Assembly (NCBI GenBank): GCA_947396885.1
Contig: OX377202.1
Coordinates: forward strand, 25,978,001 to 26,042,000
DNA from: Heligmosomoides polygyrus polygyrus
Lineage: Eukaryota > Nematoda > Chromadorea > Rhabditida > Heligmosomidae
DNA length: 64,000 nt
Direction: 5' to 3'
The notes beneath the pieces were generated by a model that searched no databases, had not been told where the DNA came from, and saw nothing but the letters and a program-made list of their open reading frames with translations. Below are positions 4,141 to 53,095 of the stretch, in pieces. Each line of letters starts with the position of its first letter. The first letter of the stretch is position 1. The position numbers and the translations under genes were made by a program.

Positions 4141-6893
4141 TCAGGTCGGCGCTCTGAGTTGTTGAGCTAGGTGAATTTGAAATGCGTGGGATTTTCGGTG
4201 GATGAACAAGTCAGGGCACAGACTATTCCACTCAGCAACCTGCCGCACTAGGAATGAGCGCTCATAGCTAGCCGTATTAGGCTTATCCGGTCGAATACGG
4301 AAGAGGTGACCCCTTAGTCTGCCAACACTGGCTGCTGGTTCGAAAAGGTCGAAGATATTGAGGCCAATCTCATCTGTGGTCAACTTGTACATTAGAGTGA
4401 AGTCGGATATTTTGCGTCTGAACTGCAGAGAGTCATCGTTAAGTCTGGAAAGACGTTCTTCATAAGAAAGACTTGGCAAACCGTAGCGACAGAAACAGCG
4501 ATATGTGAAGCTCTTTTGGACTTTCTCAACTTCTTCTATAAGAGATACGTTTTGTGGGGACCATATGGGCGTACAGTATTCAAGTAATGGCCTCACGTAG
4601 AGAACGAAAAGTCGGAAGAGCGCAACAGGATCTGGCATTTTGAAGGCTCTAAGAACAAAGTTTGAACACTTGAGGGCATCCCTTACTTTATCGTGGATGT
4701 AGCTGTCGAAATTGAGATGAGTATCATACACTACCCCTAAATCGCGTATCTGGTCAACACAATTCAACGCAGTTCCTCGTAGTGAGAAAGAGAAATTCGG
4801 ATGACCTCGTCCTAGTTTTATGACAGCAGTTTTTTGCACGGATATGTCTAAGTCCCACATTGCTGACCACTGTTCGACAGAATTTATTGCATCTTGAAGC
4901 TTTTGGCAATTGTTAACTGTAAATATTTTGGTGTCGTCGGCATATATGCTGCATACGCAGTCGGGTGGGAGAGCGTACGGCAAATCATTAATGAAGATTA
5001 CGAACAGAAGTGGTCCCAAACAAGTTCCCTGGGGAACGCCACTTAGTGAGGGGTAGGACGGAGAAATGATATCGTTTAGCACAACAGCCTGTACTCTGTC
5101 ATTGAGGAAATAGTGCAAAAATTTCAACAGCTGCCCCTTAATTCCATACGAAGAGAGCTTTTTAACAAGTAAAGGTATGGAAATTGAGTCGAAGGCTTTA
5201 GCATAGTCAAGGTTGCAAACAGAGACGTAATTAACCTTGTCAAGCTCTCTGTGCCACAACGGAACAGTGGAAAGTAGAGCGGATGTTGTTGACTTCTGTT
5301 TTAAAAATCCATGCTGTTCCTTTCGGAGGAGGTTATTGACCTTGAGATACTCATAGATTTTTTTACATAGAATACGTTCCATAACCTTACTGGTCGAGCT
5401 GGTAAGACATATTGGGTCGATAATTGACAACCTCGTTTTTTGGTCCTTTTTGTGTATAGGACGCACAAAACCAACCTTCCAAAGTCGGGGAACATCGCCT
5501 TCGAGTAAAAATCTGTTGAAAAGGATTGTCAACGGGCCAACTACACCGAGCGCTGCCCTCTTCAAAAAGACATATGGTATATTATCTGGTAATGTGGAAA
5601 ATCTGTTAGGCAGTTTCCGTAGTACGCTGTAAACTGTTTCTTTAGTGATGTCAACCCAGTTCAGCTCACTGTCGGTCATAGAGGTTATATAGGCTCCGGT
5701 ATCGCGAGGAGGTTTGTAGACTGATTTGAAATAATCGGCAAAGAGCCTACACTTATCGTTATCATCTCTAACTAAAGCATTGCCTGCTATCAAACAAGGT
5801 ATAGTCTCCTCTAATTTTAATTTCTTCTTGCAAAAACTGAAAAATAGCTTAGCATTCCTACAACGAGCTATTCTTTTTTCCTTAGTTATTTGATAGCTAG
5901 CAACGGCTCGCTTAAGTTTGCGCGAGAACTTGATATATCTTGGGTCCCTAATGGACGAGGTAGAGTAGTAAAGCCGATCAACTTTGAATTTGAGAACAAG
6001 TATTTTTCTTGGATAACTATCACGAGTGTGACTGCGCCGTACTGAAGGCACGTGATTCGCGATAAGGTTGTGGCATATCTCAACAAAGTTCTTGTACAAA
6101 ACGTTAACATCAGGTGAACAGTTGTTTATTCCAACCCAGTCTATTTCGGCTAACGAAGAAATCATCGAGTCATAGTCACCCTTGGAAAAGTTTCTGATTA
6201 GTTTGGACCTCTTAGTGGGCTGTTGCTTTGTTCCACGAATTCTGAACGAAATGGAGTTGTGATCTGATGTACTGAACGGTGGGAGGACATAAACTGCTTC
6301 AATTATGGTAGGCTGGGACACTAAAAGTATATCGAGTATATTTAGGCCATGATTGGGTTGAGATACCAACTGCTTAAGGTTCAGTGATGTGGCAAAATCA
6401 ATAAATAGAGATGAGGATATTGTCGAAATATTTGCTCTATGCGACATGTTGCACCATTCAATTGTTTGGAAATTGAAATCGCCTAAGAGAAGAATGTGGC
6501 CACTCCACTCGCACAGAGGCCGTGGAGAAAGTCAATGAATTCTGCGAATGTGGTTGAATTACAGGAGGGGCTACGGTAACAAAGCAGTAACAACGCACTG
6601 CCATGTTCAGTTTCAACACTAAGAGCTATTGATTAAATTTCGCTATGAAAGTCTTTCTGCATCACTAGTTTGTGGGTTAGATGCTTGTTAATTAATGCTA
6701 GAACGCCACCTCCTACTCTATCGCCCTGGCGATCACAGCGATATACCGCATATTGGGAGTTACAAGATAGAACGGCATCATGAACAGTGTTTGGTTTGCA
6801 CCAACTTTCAGTTATGAAGATACCATTAGGGAGTCGACGCATGATGAAGTTCAAGTCCGGAATTTTGTTTACAATCGATCTCGCATTGAACAA
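4141..6893 (-). pseudogene. CR1-like non-LTR retrotransposon ORF2 (endonuclease + reverse transcriptase)
   Basis: This encodes the replication protein of a CR1/jockey-type retrotransposon, which nicks target DNA and reverse-transcribes the element RNA there. The N-terminal endonuclease starts with FNARSIVNK, continues to ITESWCKPN, DRQGDRVGGGVLAL and LLLGDFN, and ends in TSDHNSISF. The reverse transcriptase follows with SGVPQGTCLGPLLF and the catalytic YADD (4,933-4,944). The final part is the usual 'PLLEYCTPIWSP' thumb region, with no RNase H. An uninterrupted 768-codon frame runs 6,447-4,141. The upstream endonuclease part has one in-frame TAA near 6,634 and one frameshift near 6,510, so only these two lesions separate the copy from an intact ORF2. 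It lies directly downstream of ORF1 in the same orientation, as in the family. Confidence 0.9.
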
Positions 6894-12730: not shown

Positions 12731-12825
12731 AAATTTTCAAATTTTAACGGGAACTTCTAAGGTCTGTTTGGTGCTGGTGTTGTAGCACAAACATTCTAGA
12801 ATATTTCGCATAGATGGCAATTTGC

Positions 12826-12875
12826 TTTTGAGGGCATATAAATACTACGACTGTAGTATTTATATGCCCTCAAAA
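12826..12875. repeat. perfect 22-bp hairpin with 6-base loop
   Basis: Positions 12,826-12,847 are exactly complementary to 12,854-12,875, with loop CGACTG. It contains TATAAATA in the stem. It lies about 130 bases inside the mariner-type terminus at 12,694. Confidence 0.9.
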
Positions 12876-13367
12876 GACTAGCTCATATGGACGTGTCGAT
12901 CAGATACTATCATGTATATCAATGCATCAGTTGATGTGAACGTCACGGAGGCGTCATTTTGGAACTAACACATCCAGCAAGAGGTGGGCCGCAGAAATGG
13001 GTCTCATGGCCCTTGCCGTAGCTGTTGCGGTTCGTTTGTGACTCTAGTGCACCAGACATAGACAAGGTGGGCCATCCTGTGCCGCTTCTCCTTTTTATAC
13101 GACCACATCAAACTGGACACTTCAAATTAAATCGGGTACTCTTCTAAGCAGCAAGCCTGACGCTGTTGAAATGCAACTACACATTAGCCAAATCAAGCGT
13201 TTTTCATAACAAAATAGTCTCCGAGGCGGTTGCAAGAATTTTTTGTTCAATCGTTCTTTGAAATTTTTACTATAACAGTCTTAAGTAAAAGTACAGTAAA
13301 GTAAAAGTGAGGGTTTTACATTTGTGAGTTAGGTCGAGACGTTTGCAAATGACTAGGACCTGAAGTA
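12876..13367. other. unrecognised stretch, possible mariner interior
   Basis: If the terminus at 12,694 is a mariner end, this would be its interior, but I cannot see transposase motifs. Short tandem AGTAAAAGT/AAGTAAAAGT units occur at about 13,282-13,310. Confidence 0.35.
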
Positions 13368-15462
13368 TTTGGTTGCCCCATAGGTCCATGCCATTTTTTT
13401 CAACGATTCATTGCGGATTTCGCCGGCGGTCTTGCATAGCGTTATATAGCACTCGAGAGAGAATGGTTTGCTTTATCAGAGCATGCATTGAATTTTTTTC
13501 ACCCGGAATTTTGTCAATTTTTCGGTCGTTAAAGTGAAAAATGAAAAAGTGAAAAAGTAGCCATTTGCTCACTTGTTCTCGATCTTACTTAGATCAAACC
13601 AAATTCTCCTGATGTCGCGTCATATCGACGTGGCCATTTTCGATATCCACCGACACCATGGTCAGTCGATATGGAGGAGGGTCGTTGAGCGGTCGGTGGC
13701 GGATGGCGGCTCTTCCACCGCGGCTACAGGAGAGCACTGGGAGACGGGAGCAGTTCCTCCACGAGCACCTTGAACGCACTACACCCTGGAGTCCCTTCCC
13801 TAGCCGAGTTGTGCGCTCGAAGAGCGCACAACCCATCTCCGATGTCCCCCTCAGCGACGAAAGCATTCTTGGCACGAGCCGCCTGGATGGCCCACACCCC
13901 GGAGTCCCTTTCCTAGCCGAGTTGTGCGCTCGAAGAGCGCACAACCCATCTCCGATGTCCCCCTCAGCGATGAAAGCAGTCTCTTTTGCGGAGTTTTTCA
14001 TAGCATTTGGAAGACAATGCTCTGTACTACAAAAACTCGTGTTGGCCCTATTTTCTCACTTGTCCTTTATAGAATTTTAGGTCATCAAGTTGGGGCGTCC
14101 GACATTTCCGTCCGAAATTTTACCGAAACTCCTGCACTGTGGTAGAACTTTTTTGCTCGATATTATATGTTGTTTGAGAGAGAATGTCTTGGTCTATAAG
14201 AGCTTGTGTCGCGTTTATTGGCTTATGCTGATTTCTGTCGAATATCAACAAAATTCCAAAAAGAGCAAAATCATCTCCACCAACAATTCCTTCTCCTTGT
14301 TCAGTCTGTCTTGCTTAGTTTTATATTACGAGTGATATGATACTCGAAAGCGCATGTATTGTTCTACCAGAATATATGATTTGTTCTTTGGCCATTTAAA
14401 TTTTTGCTAATTTTGAGGTCATCGAAATGGAGCAGTGCCAGGTTGACAACAATGAGCAATTTTGGCACCTTCTTCTCTTTGCTTTCAACCAGGGTTCTAG
14501 TGCGGCTAGGGCACTAGAACACTGGTTGACCGTACAAACACTATTTTTCATCGCCATTTATATACAAGCAGGCCGGCAGCAATCGTCACTCGCTGGTTCC
14601 CGATATTCATTCATCAAACGAACATATTCAACGATTTTTGCACAGAGTTGTAACTGGTGATGAAAAATAGTGTTTGCACGGTCAACCAGGGTTCTAGTGC
14701 CTTAGCCGCACTAGAACTCTGGTTGAAAGCAAAGAGAAGAAGGTGCCAAAAGTGCTCATCCTTTCGACCTGGCACTGCTCCATTTCGATGACCTGAAAAA
14801 TAGCAAAAATTCAAATGGCCAAAGAACAAATTATACATTCTGGTAGAACAGGACGTGCGCTTTCGAGTATCATATCACTCGTCATACAAAACTGAGCAAG
14901 ACAGACTGAACAAGGAGAACGATTTGTTGGTGGAGATGATTTTGCTCTTTTTGGAATTTTGTTGATATTCGACAGAAATCAGCATAAACCAATAAACGCG
15001 ACACAATTTCTTATAGACCAAGACATTCTCTCTCAAACAACATATAATATCGAGCAAAAAAGTCCTACCCCAGAGCAGGAGTTTCGGTAAAAGTTCAGAC
15101 AAAAAAATCGGATTAAATCCAATTTGATGACCTAAAACTCAGCAAAGGACAAGTGAGAAAATAGGGCCAACACGAGTTTTTGTAGCACAGAGCATTGTCT
15201 TCCAAATGCTATGAAAAACTCTGCAAAAGATTTCAAACCTAAGCGAAGAGAACAAGTGCGCAAATGGCTATTTTTTCACTTTTTCATTTTTCACTTTAAC
15301 GACCGAAAAATTGACAAAATTCCGGGTGAAAAAAATTCAATGCATGTTCTGATAAAGCAAACCATTCTCTCTCGAGTGCTATATAACGCTATGCAAGACC
15401 GCCGGCGAAGTCCGCAATGAATCGTTGAAAAAAAAACGGCGGGAACTTACGGGACAACCTAA
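13368..15462. mobile_element. fold-back element derived from mariner
   Basis: A 2,095-bp unit is flanked by TA on both sides (13,366-67 and 15,463-64). Its ends are inverted copies of a mariner-type terminus: TTAGGTTGTCCCGTAAGTT on the right (read inward) and TTTGGTTGCCCCATAGGTC on the left. The arms continue as inverted repeats to about 14,560 and from about 14,660. Each arm carries a TTTTCTCACTTGTCC segment, a GGTCATC stretch and the start of a mariner-like frame with LLLFAFNQGSSAARALE (14,427 onward on plus) or HLLLFAFNQSSSAAKALE (about 14,780-14,700 on minus). The spacer encodes FLHRVVTGDEK (about 14,635-14,667), the first catalytic-Asp block of mariner transposases. So two 5' ends face each other around a piece of catalytic domain. 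A 400-bp insertion (13,581-13,980) is present in the left arm only. Confidence 0.8.
13787..13980. repeat. 113-bp direct duplication in the left arm of the fold-back element
   Basis: A unit of 113 bp is repeated twice with few differences. Each copy carries a short hairpin, GTTGTGCGCT then CGAAG then AGCGCACAAC, at 13,808-13,832 and 13,921-13,945. The block is absent from the right arm. Confidence 0.85.
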
Positions 15463-15464
15463 TA

Positions 15465-33689: not shown

Positions 33690-36600
33690 CACGTTGGACG
33701 ACGTCAGTTGTTCCACTTAGGAAATGTTCCTAGCCTGTCCAGCTTGCCTTTGGAGTGCACCGTGAACAATGCATATAGAATCGAACCTATCAATCGATTG
33801 GGCGCGAGAGCATGTAGAGTGCCCGTTTGGGAGTTTTATCGAAATTCCCAGTTGTTCCACTTAGGAAATGTTCCTTGCCTGCCCAGCTTGCCTTTGGAGT
33901 GCACCGCGAACAATGCATATAGAATCGAACCTATCAATCGAGTGGGTGCGACCACTCGCAAATTGCACGCGCGAGTGTGCTCGGAGCGCAATAACTCTGT
34001 GGAGATCGAATCGTTCCGGCTGCGGCTCGTGGTTTGTGTAGGCAGTAGAAAGCTTTAGTGGTCCGCGAAAGTGCAGCGTTATAGCTTCTAAACAAGCGAA
34101 ATTATAGCGGCGCGAAAATGCAGATTAGCCGTGTGTGACACGATTTTCCCGAGTTCAGTCGACCCCTGCAGGAAGTCGCGGCGTGCTAACGGCATGGAAA
34201 CGCGTGGGCTAGCAGAACACTGAAGGCCCTTAACGATGACGTGCTCGCTACTCCTCAGCTGCCTGAACTGCCTTGGCCTCATCTGCCAGTTTAGAGCGGC
34301 GCAAGATAGCAGTTTGCGGAGTTTCTTGCTCTCTTACTCACCCAGATTTGAGCTTTCGACCCTCGCAATGGAACCGTTCTCTTCAGCTCGAAGAGCTCTA
34401 TCGAACGGTGGCGCTCTCGACCAATTCCAGAAAAATGGATTTTTCGACGATCTCCCATCGAGGACGCTGTCGCTCAGGCACAGCTTGCGCGGACGATGAT
34501 GTCATAGAAAATCGATATCTCACAATTGGGCCATGCTAGATACCATTCGGTCCAGCTTTTCATGCTGAATTGTCTTATTGGGAGTAGGGAAAACTGTAAT
34601 CTGGGCGAGTAAGAGCGAGGAGAACATGGACCGTTGTTGTATTGCATTGCACGCGCGGCCGTGTTCTGAGCGCGTAAACTCTGTCATTTGTAAACCTTTC
34701 CGGTTGCAGCTTGTGATTTTTGTAGGCAGTAAAATGTTCTAATAGAGGGCCGAAACAGAGCCATGTAGCTTATGATTGGGCTGTGTTACGGCGCTGCGAA
34801 AATGCAGGTTAGCCGTTTGTGACACGATTTCTTCCAAATTCAGTCGACCCCTGCGGGAAGACGCGGAGAGATACCGGCCTACAAATGCATGGGCGAGCAG
34901 AACGCTTAAAGCACTTTACGATGACATGCTCACAACTCCTCAGCTGCCTAAACCGCCTTAGCCCCAGCTGCCATTTTAGGGCGGTGGACTTAGCGTTGAA
35001 GTTTCCTGCGCCCTTACTCGCCCATATTTGGCCTATGTCGTACCATCGCTCACCCCGAGCGAAGACTAATGATAAGCTCCCATATCGATTGCGCAAAGCG
35101 ATGAGTCGATATGGGAGCTTATCATTAGGCTTCGCTCAGGATGTGCGGTGGTATGACATAGGCCTTTGAGTTTTCGACATTCGCAATAACACCGTTAGCT
35201 CGAGCACGAAAAGCTCTATCGAATGGTATCACTCACGTCCAATTCTGGAAAAAGCGATTTTTTGACAATTTCCCATCGAGGACGTGGGCCGAGCCTGCGA
35301 GGATGATGACGTCATAGAAATCGATATTTTCGAAATTGGCCAACTTTTCTCGTTCGAAATCATCTAGTGGTTATTTTGTGCGCTGATTACGAATCCGACG
35401 TTCGTTTTTGAAAATTTCGCCGATTTCGGTAGGTTACCTGCCGTTTGAAGGTGGTCGGGTCATGATCACCGATCACCCTCGGTCATCATTATGGCTGTCT
35501 TCTGCCATAATCAGCTAAATGGACTTCTTCATCGTGTTAGAAACCCCGAATAACTCCTGCCCTTAGATGAAGTTTGAGGAAAACCGGTGACCCTGACACG
35601 ACCACCCTCAGTTGTCCAGAAGAAAGACTTACCGAATTTTCAAGAACGGACGTCGGATTCGTAATCAGCGCACAAAATAACCACTAGATGATTTTGAACG
35701 TGAAAATTTGGCGAATTTCGAAAATATCGATTTCTATGACATCATCATCCGCGCAGGCTCGGCCGTCCTCGATGGAAATTGTCAAGAAAGCGCTTGTTCC
35801 AGAATTGGTCGCGAGTGGCACCATTCGATGGAGCTTTTCGTGCTGAAGCTAACCGTGTTATTGCGAGTGTCGAAAACTCAAATATGGGCGAGTAAGGGCG
35901 CAGGAAACTTCAACGCTAAGTCCACCGCCCTAAAATGGCAGATGTGGCCAAGGCAATTCAGGCAGCTAAGGAGTTGCGAGCATGTCATCGTAAAGTGCCT
36001 TCAGTGTTCTGCTAGCATACGCGTTTACATGCCGTTAGCACGCCGCGTCTTCCTGCAGGGGTCGACTGAACTCGGAAAAAATCGTGTCACACACGGCTAA
36101 TCTGCATTTTCGCGCCGCTATAATTTCGCTTCTTTAAAAGCTATAACGCTGCACTTGTGCGGTCCACTAAAGCTTTCTACTGCCTACAAAATCCACGAGC
36201 CGCAGCCGGAACGATTCGATCTCCACAGAGTTATTGCGCTCCGAACACATTCGCGCGTGCAATTTGCGAGTGGTCGCGCCCACTCGATTGATAGGTTCGA
36301 TTCTATATGCATTGTTCACGGTGCGCTCCAAAGGCAAGCTGGACAGGCTAGGAGCATTTCCCAAGTGGAACGACCGGGAATTTTGATAAAACTCCCAAAC
36401 GGTCACTCTACAGGCTCTCGTACCCACTCGACCTCACTCTGCGAGTGGTCGCGCCCACTCGATTGATAGGTTCGATTCTATATGCATTGTTCACGGCGCA
36501 CTCCAAAGGCAAGCTGGACAGTCTTAAGGCAATTTCCGAGTAGGGCGGCTGGGAATTTCAATAAAATTCCCCAAACTGTCACTCTACAGGCCCTCACTCC

Positions 36601-36795
36601 CACTCGATTGATTATGTCCGGCCTATATACATTGTTCAACTCTGTTGATTTATATGTCAGAAGATAGAGCTTGGGCCTGCTGAGCTCAAATATATGTTTC
36701 TTTTCACAAGTGCTTGATTTGAAAGAAAGTTATTTGAAAAAGCCGCTTTGGAACGCTCCAAAGCGGCTTTTTCGGGAATTGACCAAAAGGCATGC
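33690..36795. mobile_element. PAL-family palindromic repeat complex
   Basis: A long palindrome is centred near 35,527. For example 35,368-35,418 is complementary to 35,635-35,684, and 34,740-35,330 to 36,200-35,700. The right arm continues to CGGTACTGTA at about 36,786-36,795. An extra direct copy of the arm lies at 33,690-34,545. Each arm has two spaced copies of GATTGATAGGTTCGATTCTA (period 144 bp in the left copy, starting 33,707 and 33,851). Near the right end is the hairpin AAAAGCCGCTTTGG...CCAAAGCGGCTTTTT (36,737-36,772). Single-arm or partial copies are at 10.9-11.7 and 44.6-46.3 kb. No transposase frame, so it is a non-autonomous fold-back type element. All open frames inside are arm repeats read in several directions. 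Confidence 0.78.
35030..35164. mobile_element. hairpin MITE, family H, 135 bp, with empty site
   Basis: Begins GGCCTATGTCGTACCATCGC and ends with the near-complement, GCGGTGGTATGACATAGGCC. TTT flanks both sides (35,027-29 and 35,165-67). The other arm of the palindrome (near 35,885) has the uninterrupted sequence ATATTTGAGTTTTCGACAC on the complement, with a single TTT, so the empty site is visible in the same molecule. Confidence 0.9.
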
Positions 36796-51181: not shown

Positions 51182-51913
51182 CAGGGTGCGTAAAAAGTAT
51201 TGACGCAGTAAATGACGGCTGTGGAAATAGTATTGCGCTGTAAGTTTTAAAATATTCACTTGGGAAATATGGAAAATGATCTTGCAAACACGATAGAATA
51301 ACTCGTAATCGACATTGGCTTCTTTACTGAGAATACAGGAACGAAAACGACGGAAAAATTCATGAGCACGCGCCGCAAGTACTCGCTTGGATTTCGTTCC
51401 GTGCTTTTAACAGGGTAGCCTTCTGCGACTGGTCACTTCTATTAAAAGTAGCCCAGACCTCATTCTCCAAAATCGCCTAAAAAGAGTAATCCAGCGGATT
51501 CTTGTTTAAGCTGTGCTCGTCTGAAAAGCTGTCCACATCTGCGCGCCTTATCCGTTTGCCGTTATCGGACAGAGATTGATAATTTTGGATTTGAACGTTA
51601 TCGTGCTTGAACATATTGTAATCATCATCTGTTATGACAGAGCCGTGGCTGACGTTTGGGTTGCTGGCCTCTTTCCTCACCAACCGTTTCGAACAGCGCC
51701 TAATTTTCTTGTTAAGGAAGTACTCAGCTGTCTGGGTAACAGACAAAAAAAGGCCACCGTAGCGATGACGATCATGTTTCTTCAGTTTTTTCGTGAGTGT
51801 TTTTTGACCACAATACAGACAACAAAAATAACACACAAAAGCCTAGAGGGGTAGAAAGAGAAAGCTGGAGCTGAAACAAAAAGTAGGTGCGTCAATACTT
51901 TTTACGCACACTG
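51182..51913. mobile_element. 732-bp inverted-repeat element at TA, Tc1/mariner-like termini
   Basis: TA flanks both sides (51,180-81 and 51,914-15). The 26-bp ends, CAGGGTGCGTAAAAAGTATT then GACGCA, and the reversed right end, CAGTGTGCGTAAAAAGTATT then GACGCA, differ by one base. TA duplication and CAG-type ends fit the Tc1/mariner superfamily. It lies just upstream of a mariner transposase remnant, whose own 5' terminus is not visible. Confidence 0.88.
51477..51836 (-). CDS. 119-codon frame inside the 732-bp element, function unknown
   Basis: The frame reads FCCLYCGQKTLTKKLKKHDR near its start, then NKKIRRCSKRLVRKEASNPN (a basic stretch that loosely resembles the second helix-turn-helix of Tc1-like transposases), then DDDYNMFKHDNVQIQNYQSL and stops at LDYSF. 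It fills about half of the element. A TTTCAG lies upstream on the same strand (about 51,874). No catalytic motif is visible, so it is at most the DNA-binding part of a transposase or captured host sequence. Unassigned. Confidence 0.35.
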   Translation of the reverse strand: MCYFCCLYCGQKTLTKKLKKHDRHRYGGLFLSVTQTAEYFLNKKIRRCSKRLVRKEASNPNVSHGSVITDDDYNMFKHDNVQIQNYQSLSDNGKRIRRADVDSFSDEHSLNKNPLDYSF

Positions 51914-51923
51914 TACAGCAACA

Positions 51924-52760
51924 ATGTCAAAGACGAGCGGCAGCATCCTATGACCTATCGTCTACTACGAATTTCTGCAAGGCCATTCCGCAAGGACTGC
52001 AGTCTTCAACATCTGCGCTGCATTCAAGGAGCAAGTCATTCACTATTCCACAGTGGCCCGTTGATATCAGCGCTTCAAGGCTGGAGATATCTCTCTCGAA
52101 GATCGGCCTCGTTTCTGACGCCCTCTGTTGGGGAAGAAGACAGCTTTTGCGAAGCCTTCAAGGTGAAGCCAAATTCAACCACTCGCGAATTGGCGGCGAC
52201 GTTTGGATGTGCGCAAAGCACCGTCGAGAAGCAGCTGGAGATCCTTGCGTACCGCAAAGTTTCGTCGTCTTGGGTACCACGTGAGCTGCGGGACTCTGAC
52301 AAGGCATGCCGAATTAGTGTTCCTGAGTCGCTGCTTCTCCGCCCGCACAGAAAGGACTTTCTGAAGGATATCGTTACTGGTGATGAAAGCTGGATTCTTT
52401 ATGTTAGCTACACCCGCAAGACCTCCCACGTAGAAAACCGGCTCCAAGACAACCGAAAGGTGTACACTACGAAAAGAATGTTCTTCTGTGTTGCTGGTGG
52501 GACTCAGAAGGCACGCTTTACTGGGAGTTACTGGATTGTGAGACCACAGCCACAGCATTTGTCTACGCTGCTCAGCTCCAGATATTGGCCGATGCCATGC
52601 GCCAAAACGTCCAGAACGGGAAAATGTCTACCTGCTGCACGCGCGCGTCCTCATGTCGCAAAAGTGAGACGCGAGAAAATCCAGGAGTTAGGCTGGGAAG
52701 TTCTGCCCTATGCAGACCTCGCTCCTCCTGACTACTACCTGTCTACTACCCGAAGCAGCA
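51924..52760 (+). pseudogene. mariner transposase, full length but decayed
   Basis: From an ATG at 51,924 (MSKTSG), with frame changes: PIVYYEFLQGHSARTAVFNI, CAAFKEQVIHYSTVAR and YQRFKAGDISLEDRPR give the helix-turn-helix region. NSTTRELAATFGCAQSTVEK is the linker. LKDIVTGDESWILYVSYTRK has the first catalytic D. KRMFFCVAGGTQKARFTGSY follows, with AGG where WWD is usual. ARARPHVAKVRREKIQELGW replaces the HDNARPHVAK block (second D lost to ARA), and LAPPDYYLS keeps the third D. A single 332-codon frame (51,887-52,885) covers much of this but its N-terminal 85 residues are out of the transposase frame. Dead copy; relative of 42.7-44.2 kb. Confidence 0.87.
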
Positions 52761-52809
52761 TCATCGAGGTAGAGAGTTCGATGATCGACGTCAACTGGAA
52801 ATGGAGGTT

Positions 52810-52865
52810 TCTGAATTCTTTTCCTCGGAAATGGAGATTTCTGAATTCTTTTCCTCACAGCTTTC
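52810..52865 (+). repeat. short tandem duplication
   Basis: The unit AATGGAGGTTTCTGAATTCTT then TTCCTCGG (about 31 bp, starting about 52,799) occurs twice in a row with a G/A difference at the end of the mariner remnant. Confidence 0.75.
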
Positions 52866-53095
52866 GGAATTCTAGGGAAAATTAATTGAAAGGCTGCATG
52901 AAAGATGGGGAGGGATATAAGACTTGGATTGGGAATATATCAATCGGTCTCAGGCGGTCGTCGCGGACGGTTGGTCATTGACGGCCTGGTGGCACCTCGG
53001 CAACGGACTTCCTTCCGCCAGCACTGCAGCTACTACCTGCTGGTATTCTGTCTATTTCAACGGCTTCTTCGTCCTATCTACACCACTATCTGGTT

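Follow-up and report, generated by a model that had tools for sequence, protein, structure and literature searches.

A probable non-autonomous fold-back transposon family derived from mariner in the nematode Heligmosomoides polygyrus polygyrus

We analysed a 64,000-nucleotide stretch of the Heligmosomoides polygyrus polygyrus genome (assembly GCA_947396885.1, contig OX377202.1, positions 25,978,001 to 26,042,000), referred to here as the window. Window positions 13368-15462 hold an inverted repeat of 2,095 bp whose ends are mariner-type and flanked by TA. We identify it as an old copy of a fold-back family that descends from mariner, is non-autonomous and very probably moves as a unit and in trans. 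The mariner-arm fold-back family is new here; the kind, a fold-back belonging to the Tc1/mariner superfamily, is already known and has precedents in nematodes. To our knowledge, the birth of a fold-back transposon is seldom visible, the parent usually being gone. Here pieces of the mariner gene can still be recognised in the arms and loop, together with their orientation. Since the genome also has relatives with other centres, the sequence might reveal in what order deletion, inversion and arm copying took place. The arms also provide an internal clock, and gene conversion between inverted repeats can be tested on them.

The left end of the element reads TTTGGTTGCCCCATAGG and the right end, as reverse complement, TTAGGTTGTCCCGTAAG. 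A first-pass annotation, made from the sequence alone, described a palindrome with two inverted mariner 5' ends; this structure is real, and the limits given for it were exact (Table 1). Alignment of the arms, as the annotation had proposed, gave four inverted blocks of 93-98% identity: 187 bp (13394-13580 with 15248-15434, 98%), 112 bp (13982-14093 with 15119-15230, 94%), 349 bp (14098-14446 with 14764-15112, 93%) and 109 bp (14452-14560 with 14651-14759, 94%). With blastn, the outer blocks matched at 93.6% over 218 bp and the inner self-inverted block at 88.0% over 1,263 bp, spacer counted in. The aligned arms differ at 56 of the first 786 compared sites and at 83 of 833 in all, the excess being the non-matching loop. 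The arms had been described as about 1 kb long; their inverted arrangement holds, but they measure about 0.8 kb (812 bp on the right and 792 bp on the left if the 401 extra bases at 13581-13981, which make the left arm longer, are discounted). With arms that make up most of its length and a spacer of 90 nt, the window copy has the build of a fold-back.

Each arm of the window copy begins with a mariner terminus and ends in the start of a mariner transposase; the leader between the two is about 0.68 kb long in the right arm and, counting the extra stretch, 1.06 kb in the left. Both arms run into the same start, as had been noticed earlier: an ATG at 14427 (+) in the left arm and at 14783 (-) in the right arm precedes LLLFAFNQ[G/S]SSAA. 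The 401-bp stretch of the left arm holds a direct repeat of 113 bp (13743-13855 and 13856-13968), each unit of which carries a 25-nt hairpin (GTTGTGCGCTCGAAGAGCGCACAAC); the stretch was not seen in any of the other 19 two-armed copies described below. The outer 26 bp of the arms are less alike. We rejected their reading as 5' versus 3' mariner ends, the same form being found at both ends elsewhere, and because the other copies carry one form at both ends, the left end of the window copy is probably just mutated. Each arm also seems to contain diverged internal repeats (e.g., 13442-13480 and 15009-15047), with 79-81% identity over 27-29 nt (E 0.007) and 72% over 39 nt; these are perhaps putative subterminal binding sites.

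Table 1. Features of the fold-back element, in window coordinates
Feature	Position	Strand	Remark
Left TA, target site duplication	13366..13367	none	
Left terminal repeat	13368..13393	+	TTTGGTTGCCCCATAGGTCCATGCCA; family form TTAGGTTGTCCCATAAGTCCCCGCCG
Left arm, outer part	13368..13580	+	13394-13580 vs 15248-15434 inverted, 98%
Left-arm-only stretch, 401 bp	13581..13981	none	right arm has ~17 bp there
Left arm, inner part	13982..14560	+	leads into transposase start; inverted matches 93-94%
Mariner transposase N-terminus remnant	14427..14515	+	MEQCQVDNNEQFWHLLLFAFNQGSSAARA; start of HTH_48 (E 0.0076, below the Pfam cut-off)
Small internal hairpin, inner junction of left arm	14485..14529	none	family feature
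Spacer/loop	14561..14650	none	90 nt between arms
Transposase piece	14563..14610	-	MNIGNQRVTIAAGLLV; just upstream of first catalytic block
First catalytic block	14635..14667	+	FLHRVVTGDEK
Right arm	14651..15462	-	inverted copy of left
Small internal hairpin, right arm	14682..14726	none	
Second N-terminus remnant	14695..14783	-	frame broken after MEQCQV
Right terminal repeat	15437..15462	-	TTAGGTTGTCCCGTAAGTTCCCGCCG
Right TA, target site duplication	15463..15464	none	

Other copies were looked for in the window's own assembly (656 Mb, six contigs of 97-112 Mb), and there are many, which answers the refuting case of no other copies that the annotation had named. The family search scored 40 of 5,048 first-look candidates, so copy numbers are lower bounds. 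There are at least 192 matches, which we grouped by hand into 40 places including that of the window. Twenty of the 39 places outside the window were fetched with flanks and the other 19 were left out; two arms were present in 19 of the 20 fetched copies (one arm is damaged in loci L036, L044 and L049), and L050 has a single arm. The same centre aligns in these 19 copies and in that of the window, although some of them, such as L038, L039 and L042, have local deletions. Its first half contains the transposase start, the small hairpin (AACCAGGGTTCTAGTGC-GGCTAAG-GCACTAGAACCCTGGTT) and the catalytic piece copied in reverse; after the turn come the catalytic piece, the hairpin and the inverted arm. 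The annotation had placed a catalytic-domain piece between two inverted mariner 5' ends, and the other genomic copies have this same build. Because the centre is shared by 19 copies and the window copy, the structure as such was amplified. Two-ended copies without the extra stretch of the window copy measure 1.56-1.76 kb, and the window copy is without about 47 bp of loop that most others keep. With many like-built copies and no functional transposase gene, the family has the character of a miniature inverted-repeat transposable element (MITE) and is non-autonomous. The 32-mer of the terminal inverted repeat (TIR), with up to three mismatches, occurs at 5,181 genomic sites, a count that takes in ends of any element bearing that terminus; the reversed-pattern control gave 0.

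Nine inward-facing pairs of exact 32-nt termini lie 991-1,088 bp apart in the listed part of contig C1 (786503-787535, 5168579-5169666, 6144335-6145376, 9267548-9268538, 30463841-30464883, 30974721-30975773, 40111495-40112545, 49828503-49829553 and 54849411-54850441). They may form a younger and shorter class that shares these termini.

The palindrome goes into TA sites as one piece. Target sites were scored in 21 copies, including those in the window and at L050; 14 had two alignable ends and seven lacked one. Of the 14, seven have TA on both sides, five have TA and a one-base variant, and in two the site is displaced by small indels; TA makes up 5.5% of window dinucleotides. When the flanks were joined, two of the 14 pairs had a spanning match among the fetched loci. 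The joined flanks of L046, which itself has TA on the left and TG on the right, match an unoccupied paralogous site that has just one TA where they meet (L037:915-1265, 301 of 352 positions identical), and unit insertion at TA follows from this match. The spanning match for L035 is about 75% identical and has no clean TA, which lends weak support. The earlier proposal that TA at both ends marks a palindrome moved as a whole is thus borne out by the shared centre and by the empty site with its single TA. The same two results speak against a chance head-to-head insertion of two mariners or an assembly artefact: although head-to-head arrangements do occur, 19 other places share the centre and the empty site records insertion of the unit, so this explanation is rejected for the family and is extremely improbable.

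The evidence for mariner ancestry comes from the transposase remnants and the ends. The transposase piece MNIGNQRVTIAAGLLV and FLHRVVTGDEK are neighbouring parts of the same transposase on opposite strands, and the loop reads RNQRVTIAAGLLVRHHSSHGHIQRFLHRIVTGDEK on the transposase sense strand. FLHRVVTGDEK had been assigned to the spacer; it is present, but it straddles the spacer edge. The codon after TGDEK, Trp in mariners, is TAG in the window copy; among 20 aligned copies, 14 have TAG and three TGG. The catalytic fragment matches the mariner at L054 in the same genome (E 5e-5 to 5e-9 in a one-sequence search). For the N-terminal fragment there is a match below the Pfam cut-off (E 6.8e-4) to HTH_48, which is the helix-turn-helix (HTH) of Mos1 transposase; in the relative at L056, where the frame runs on, the HTH_48 match is above the cut-off (E 9.8e-13, stops as X). 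Both ends carry a terminal repeat of the family form TTAGGTTGTCCCATAAGTCCCC, which is mariner-type, and L054 carries TTAGGTTGGTGCACAAGTTC at one end. In our judgement the loop can firmly be read as a catalytic piece of mariner transposase because of the TGDEK motif and its position; the library scores are weak. Several results weigh against a mariner-derived fold-back that moves in trans. The catalytic fragment had no Pfam match to Transposase_1, and its PDB search returned SETMAR/Mos1 at E 0.09-0.41, the top rank (E 1.1e-4) being a designed repeat protein, a repeat artefact. The N-terminal fragment did not align with the L054 mariner, and the best 150 of 3,028 HTH candidates included no full-length transposase of the family. 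The second and third acidic residues of the DD34D domain were not seen in the family, whose transposase is known from fragments only, and the window element has no open frame longer than 140 residues.

Mobilisation in trans is inferred. Nine of the 150 scored HTH matches (3,028 candidates) extend beyond residue 50, and the longest open frame among the listed matches is 197 residues. The genome is rich in mariners, with 26,990 PF01359 candidates, of which 150 were scored. L054 (C60:247900-250300) has an intact-looking mariner transposase frame of 342 residues and TIRs of about 33 bp. It might serve as a source in trans, although its ends are unlike those of the fold-back family; it was rejected as the parent, its TIRs being unrelated to the fold-back arms. 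Two further pairs of exact termini lie 2,686 bp (C1:45734362-45737047) and 2,866 bp (C1:55184184-55187049) apart; they are candidates for longer, perhaps complete, elements and the most promising places for a parent. A separate mariner-like coding stretch with an open frame (VTGDESWILY) occupies window positions 51887-52882, with a weak Mos1 match (E 0.12) and no Pfam transposase match.

Relatives in the genome bear on how the palindrome arose. At L056 the order is arm, colinear first half of the transposase and inverted arm, and the arms are 82.7% identical over 671 bp; the right end lay outside the fetched stretch. The first half holds the helix-turn-helix, the catalytic piece and EEWLSTGKQTT, with broken frames and a simple-repeat insertion. 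Compared with L056, the main type has lost the helix-turn-helix stretch and has a reverse copy of the catalytic piece instead, and L056 is possibly an intermediate between mariner and fold-back. L055 is a fold-back of the main type and L053 is truncated.

We tentatively favour a stepwise birth, an account that as a whole falls somewhat short of an even chance. An inverted 5' end would have replaced the 3' half of the gene, giving the L056 state; repeated arm copying would then have extended and re-symmetrised the palindrome, so that changes in a single arm (the small hairpin, junction shifts) reappear opposite and matched arm pairs diversify, and the genome would hold intermediates. In the first step, which we think fairly probable, an inverted copy of a mariner's 5' end would have replaced the 3' half of the transposase gene together with the 3' end of that mariner, as in L056. 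The arms would then have grown inward, the helix-turn-helix of one half being overwritten by the reversed catalytic piece of the other, to give a near-complete palindrome through template switching or conversion between arms; we give this step an even chance. Amplification would very likely have followed since both ends bear the terminal repeat, which a mariner-type transposase made elsewhere would bind, cut and insert at TA. Finally, the arms of a copy would probably keep correcting each other in patches. Short templated inverted duplications by a fold-back mechanism are reported for yeast breaks in PMC11724301. Against this stepwise account, the fold-backs at L051, L052 and L057 have centres of other kinds, and at L051 and L057 the left junction is unlike the right. 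A 7-base inverted match at the turn was also tried as a priming site and rejected, L056 sharing only GTGAT.

Alternatively, the arms could be the natural long TIRs of a long-TIR mariner, and the fold-backs MITE-like derivatives by internal deletion, with no later inverted duplication of ends. L056 is compatible with this reading as well, long-TIR (LTIR) relatives of Tc1/mariner in aphids have TIRs of about 460 bp according to PMC5490172, and the 2,686- and 2,866-bp intervals on C1 would by length fit two arms and a complete gene. However, the 3' arm contains an antisense transposase start, so that the gene start belongs to the repeat, and the main-type centre has a reversed catalytic piece, which internal deletion alone does not give. 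A complete transposase between arms was absent from the copies read, which do not include the two C1 intervals. We regard the long-TIR origin as unlikely.

The stepwise account with arm copying can be compared with sequence sharing between the arms of each copy. Arm distances were computed for all 20 pairs, including the damaged L036, L044 and L049; these three were left out of the tree, private-base count and run-length control, which cover 17 of the 20 two-armed copies, window included. Mean distances between copies are 0.180 for left-left, 0.174 for left-right and 0.161 for right-right comparisons. Left arms are thus no closer to one another than to right arms, and nothing points to fixed differences between left and right. 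In the 17 copies, 57 bases are private to one copy and present on both of its arms (3.4 per copy), compared with 0.61 per pair in 272 mismatched control pairs. The two arms are sisters in the tree in 10 of 17 copies, one with a support of 0.04, and in nine of 17 the longest identical run is above 57 nt, which is the 95% point for mismatched pairs. Clustering was significant by permutation (<0.05) in 11 of 17. These private shared changes and long identical tracts suggest arm-to-arm copying in the form of patchy conversion. The same data also hold points against it. The window copy alone supplies 13 of the 57 private bases present on both arms. In seven of 17 copies the two arms do not group as sisters, and L047 (133 nt) is the only copy whose longest run is above the control maximum of 100 nt. 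Six of 17 copies show no clustering, and the damaged pairs L036, L044 and L049 cluster too, so the permutation test is not specific. Part of the sharing could be due to subfamilies outside the sample.

The annotation considered mariner-derived fold-backs of this size unusual; such elements are less so, given Tc4 and a palindromic transposon-related repeat, both of Caenorhabditis elegans. Tc4 reportedly resembles the window family in having long inverted arms and a short loop (about 1.6 kb in all) and in being related to Tc1/mariner. It is said to duplicate TNA, in contrast to the TA of the window family (the end sequences were not compared), and its loop is reportedly no piece of mariner transposase. 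The palindromic repeat is said to be Tc6, with ends related to Tc1 and not to mariner. MADE1, the palindromic MITE of human Hsmar1, has mariner ends and is moved in trans, like the window family; it differs in being about 80 bp long and in consisting of terminal repeats only, without coding remnants. Galileo and Tm1 make other target duplications than the window family does. Tc4 is cited as a known fold-back (Yuan et al. 1991) in PMC6829131, and the C. elegans repeat (Dreyfus and Emmons 1991, as cited in PMC3212995) is, like the window family, a palindrome with transposon-related sequence. Foldback-like long inverted arms are shared with Galileo of the P superfamily, as described in PMC4168063, and with Tm1 (Mutator/Foldback) of root-knot nematodes, as described in PMC3169594, both of which belong to transposase superfamilies other than that of the window family. 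The aphid LTIR elements and the window family both have TIRs hundreds of bases long; according to PMC5490172, a DD40-41D transposase gene lies between those of the aphid elements, whereas the window family has a fragment of a few dozen residues. A literature search whose coverage left out most subscription papers found no report of this mariner fold-back family among the results listed.

Folded as RNA, 951 nt of the palindrome have a predicted energy of -687.8 kcal/mol, compared with -227.8 (standard deviation 8.1) for 20 shuffles (z -56.65), so the inverted structure exceeds what chance would give. Double-stranded RNA from the palindrome fits this predicted fold, and younger copies, if transcribed, would give long hairpins for small-RNA studies to look for. 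The palindrome might even be retained as a source of hairpin RNA for a small-RNA pathway by which mariners are silenced, and a transcript predicted to fold almost completely is what this would call for. We consider retention of this kind very unlikely: the copies are diverged (means 0.16-0.18) and several are truncated, like ordinary dead copies, and amplification accounts for the copy number without any benefit to the host.

The window contains a second, larger inverted structure at 33707-36607, whose arms align over 833 bp at 84% and which includes a 175-bp tandem repeat at 36265-36607. It was rejected as a member of the family, being unrelated to the mariner fold-back; repeats related to it lie at 10.9-11.2 kb and 44.7-45.8 kb. 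A candidate terminus at L043:1775 was set aside as a chance match. About 0.5 kb outside the mariner-derived element, at window positions 12825-12876, lies a perfect 24-bp inverted repeat with a 4-nt loop.
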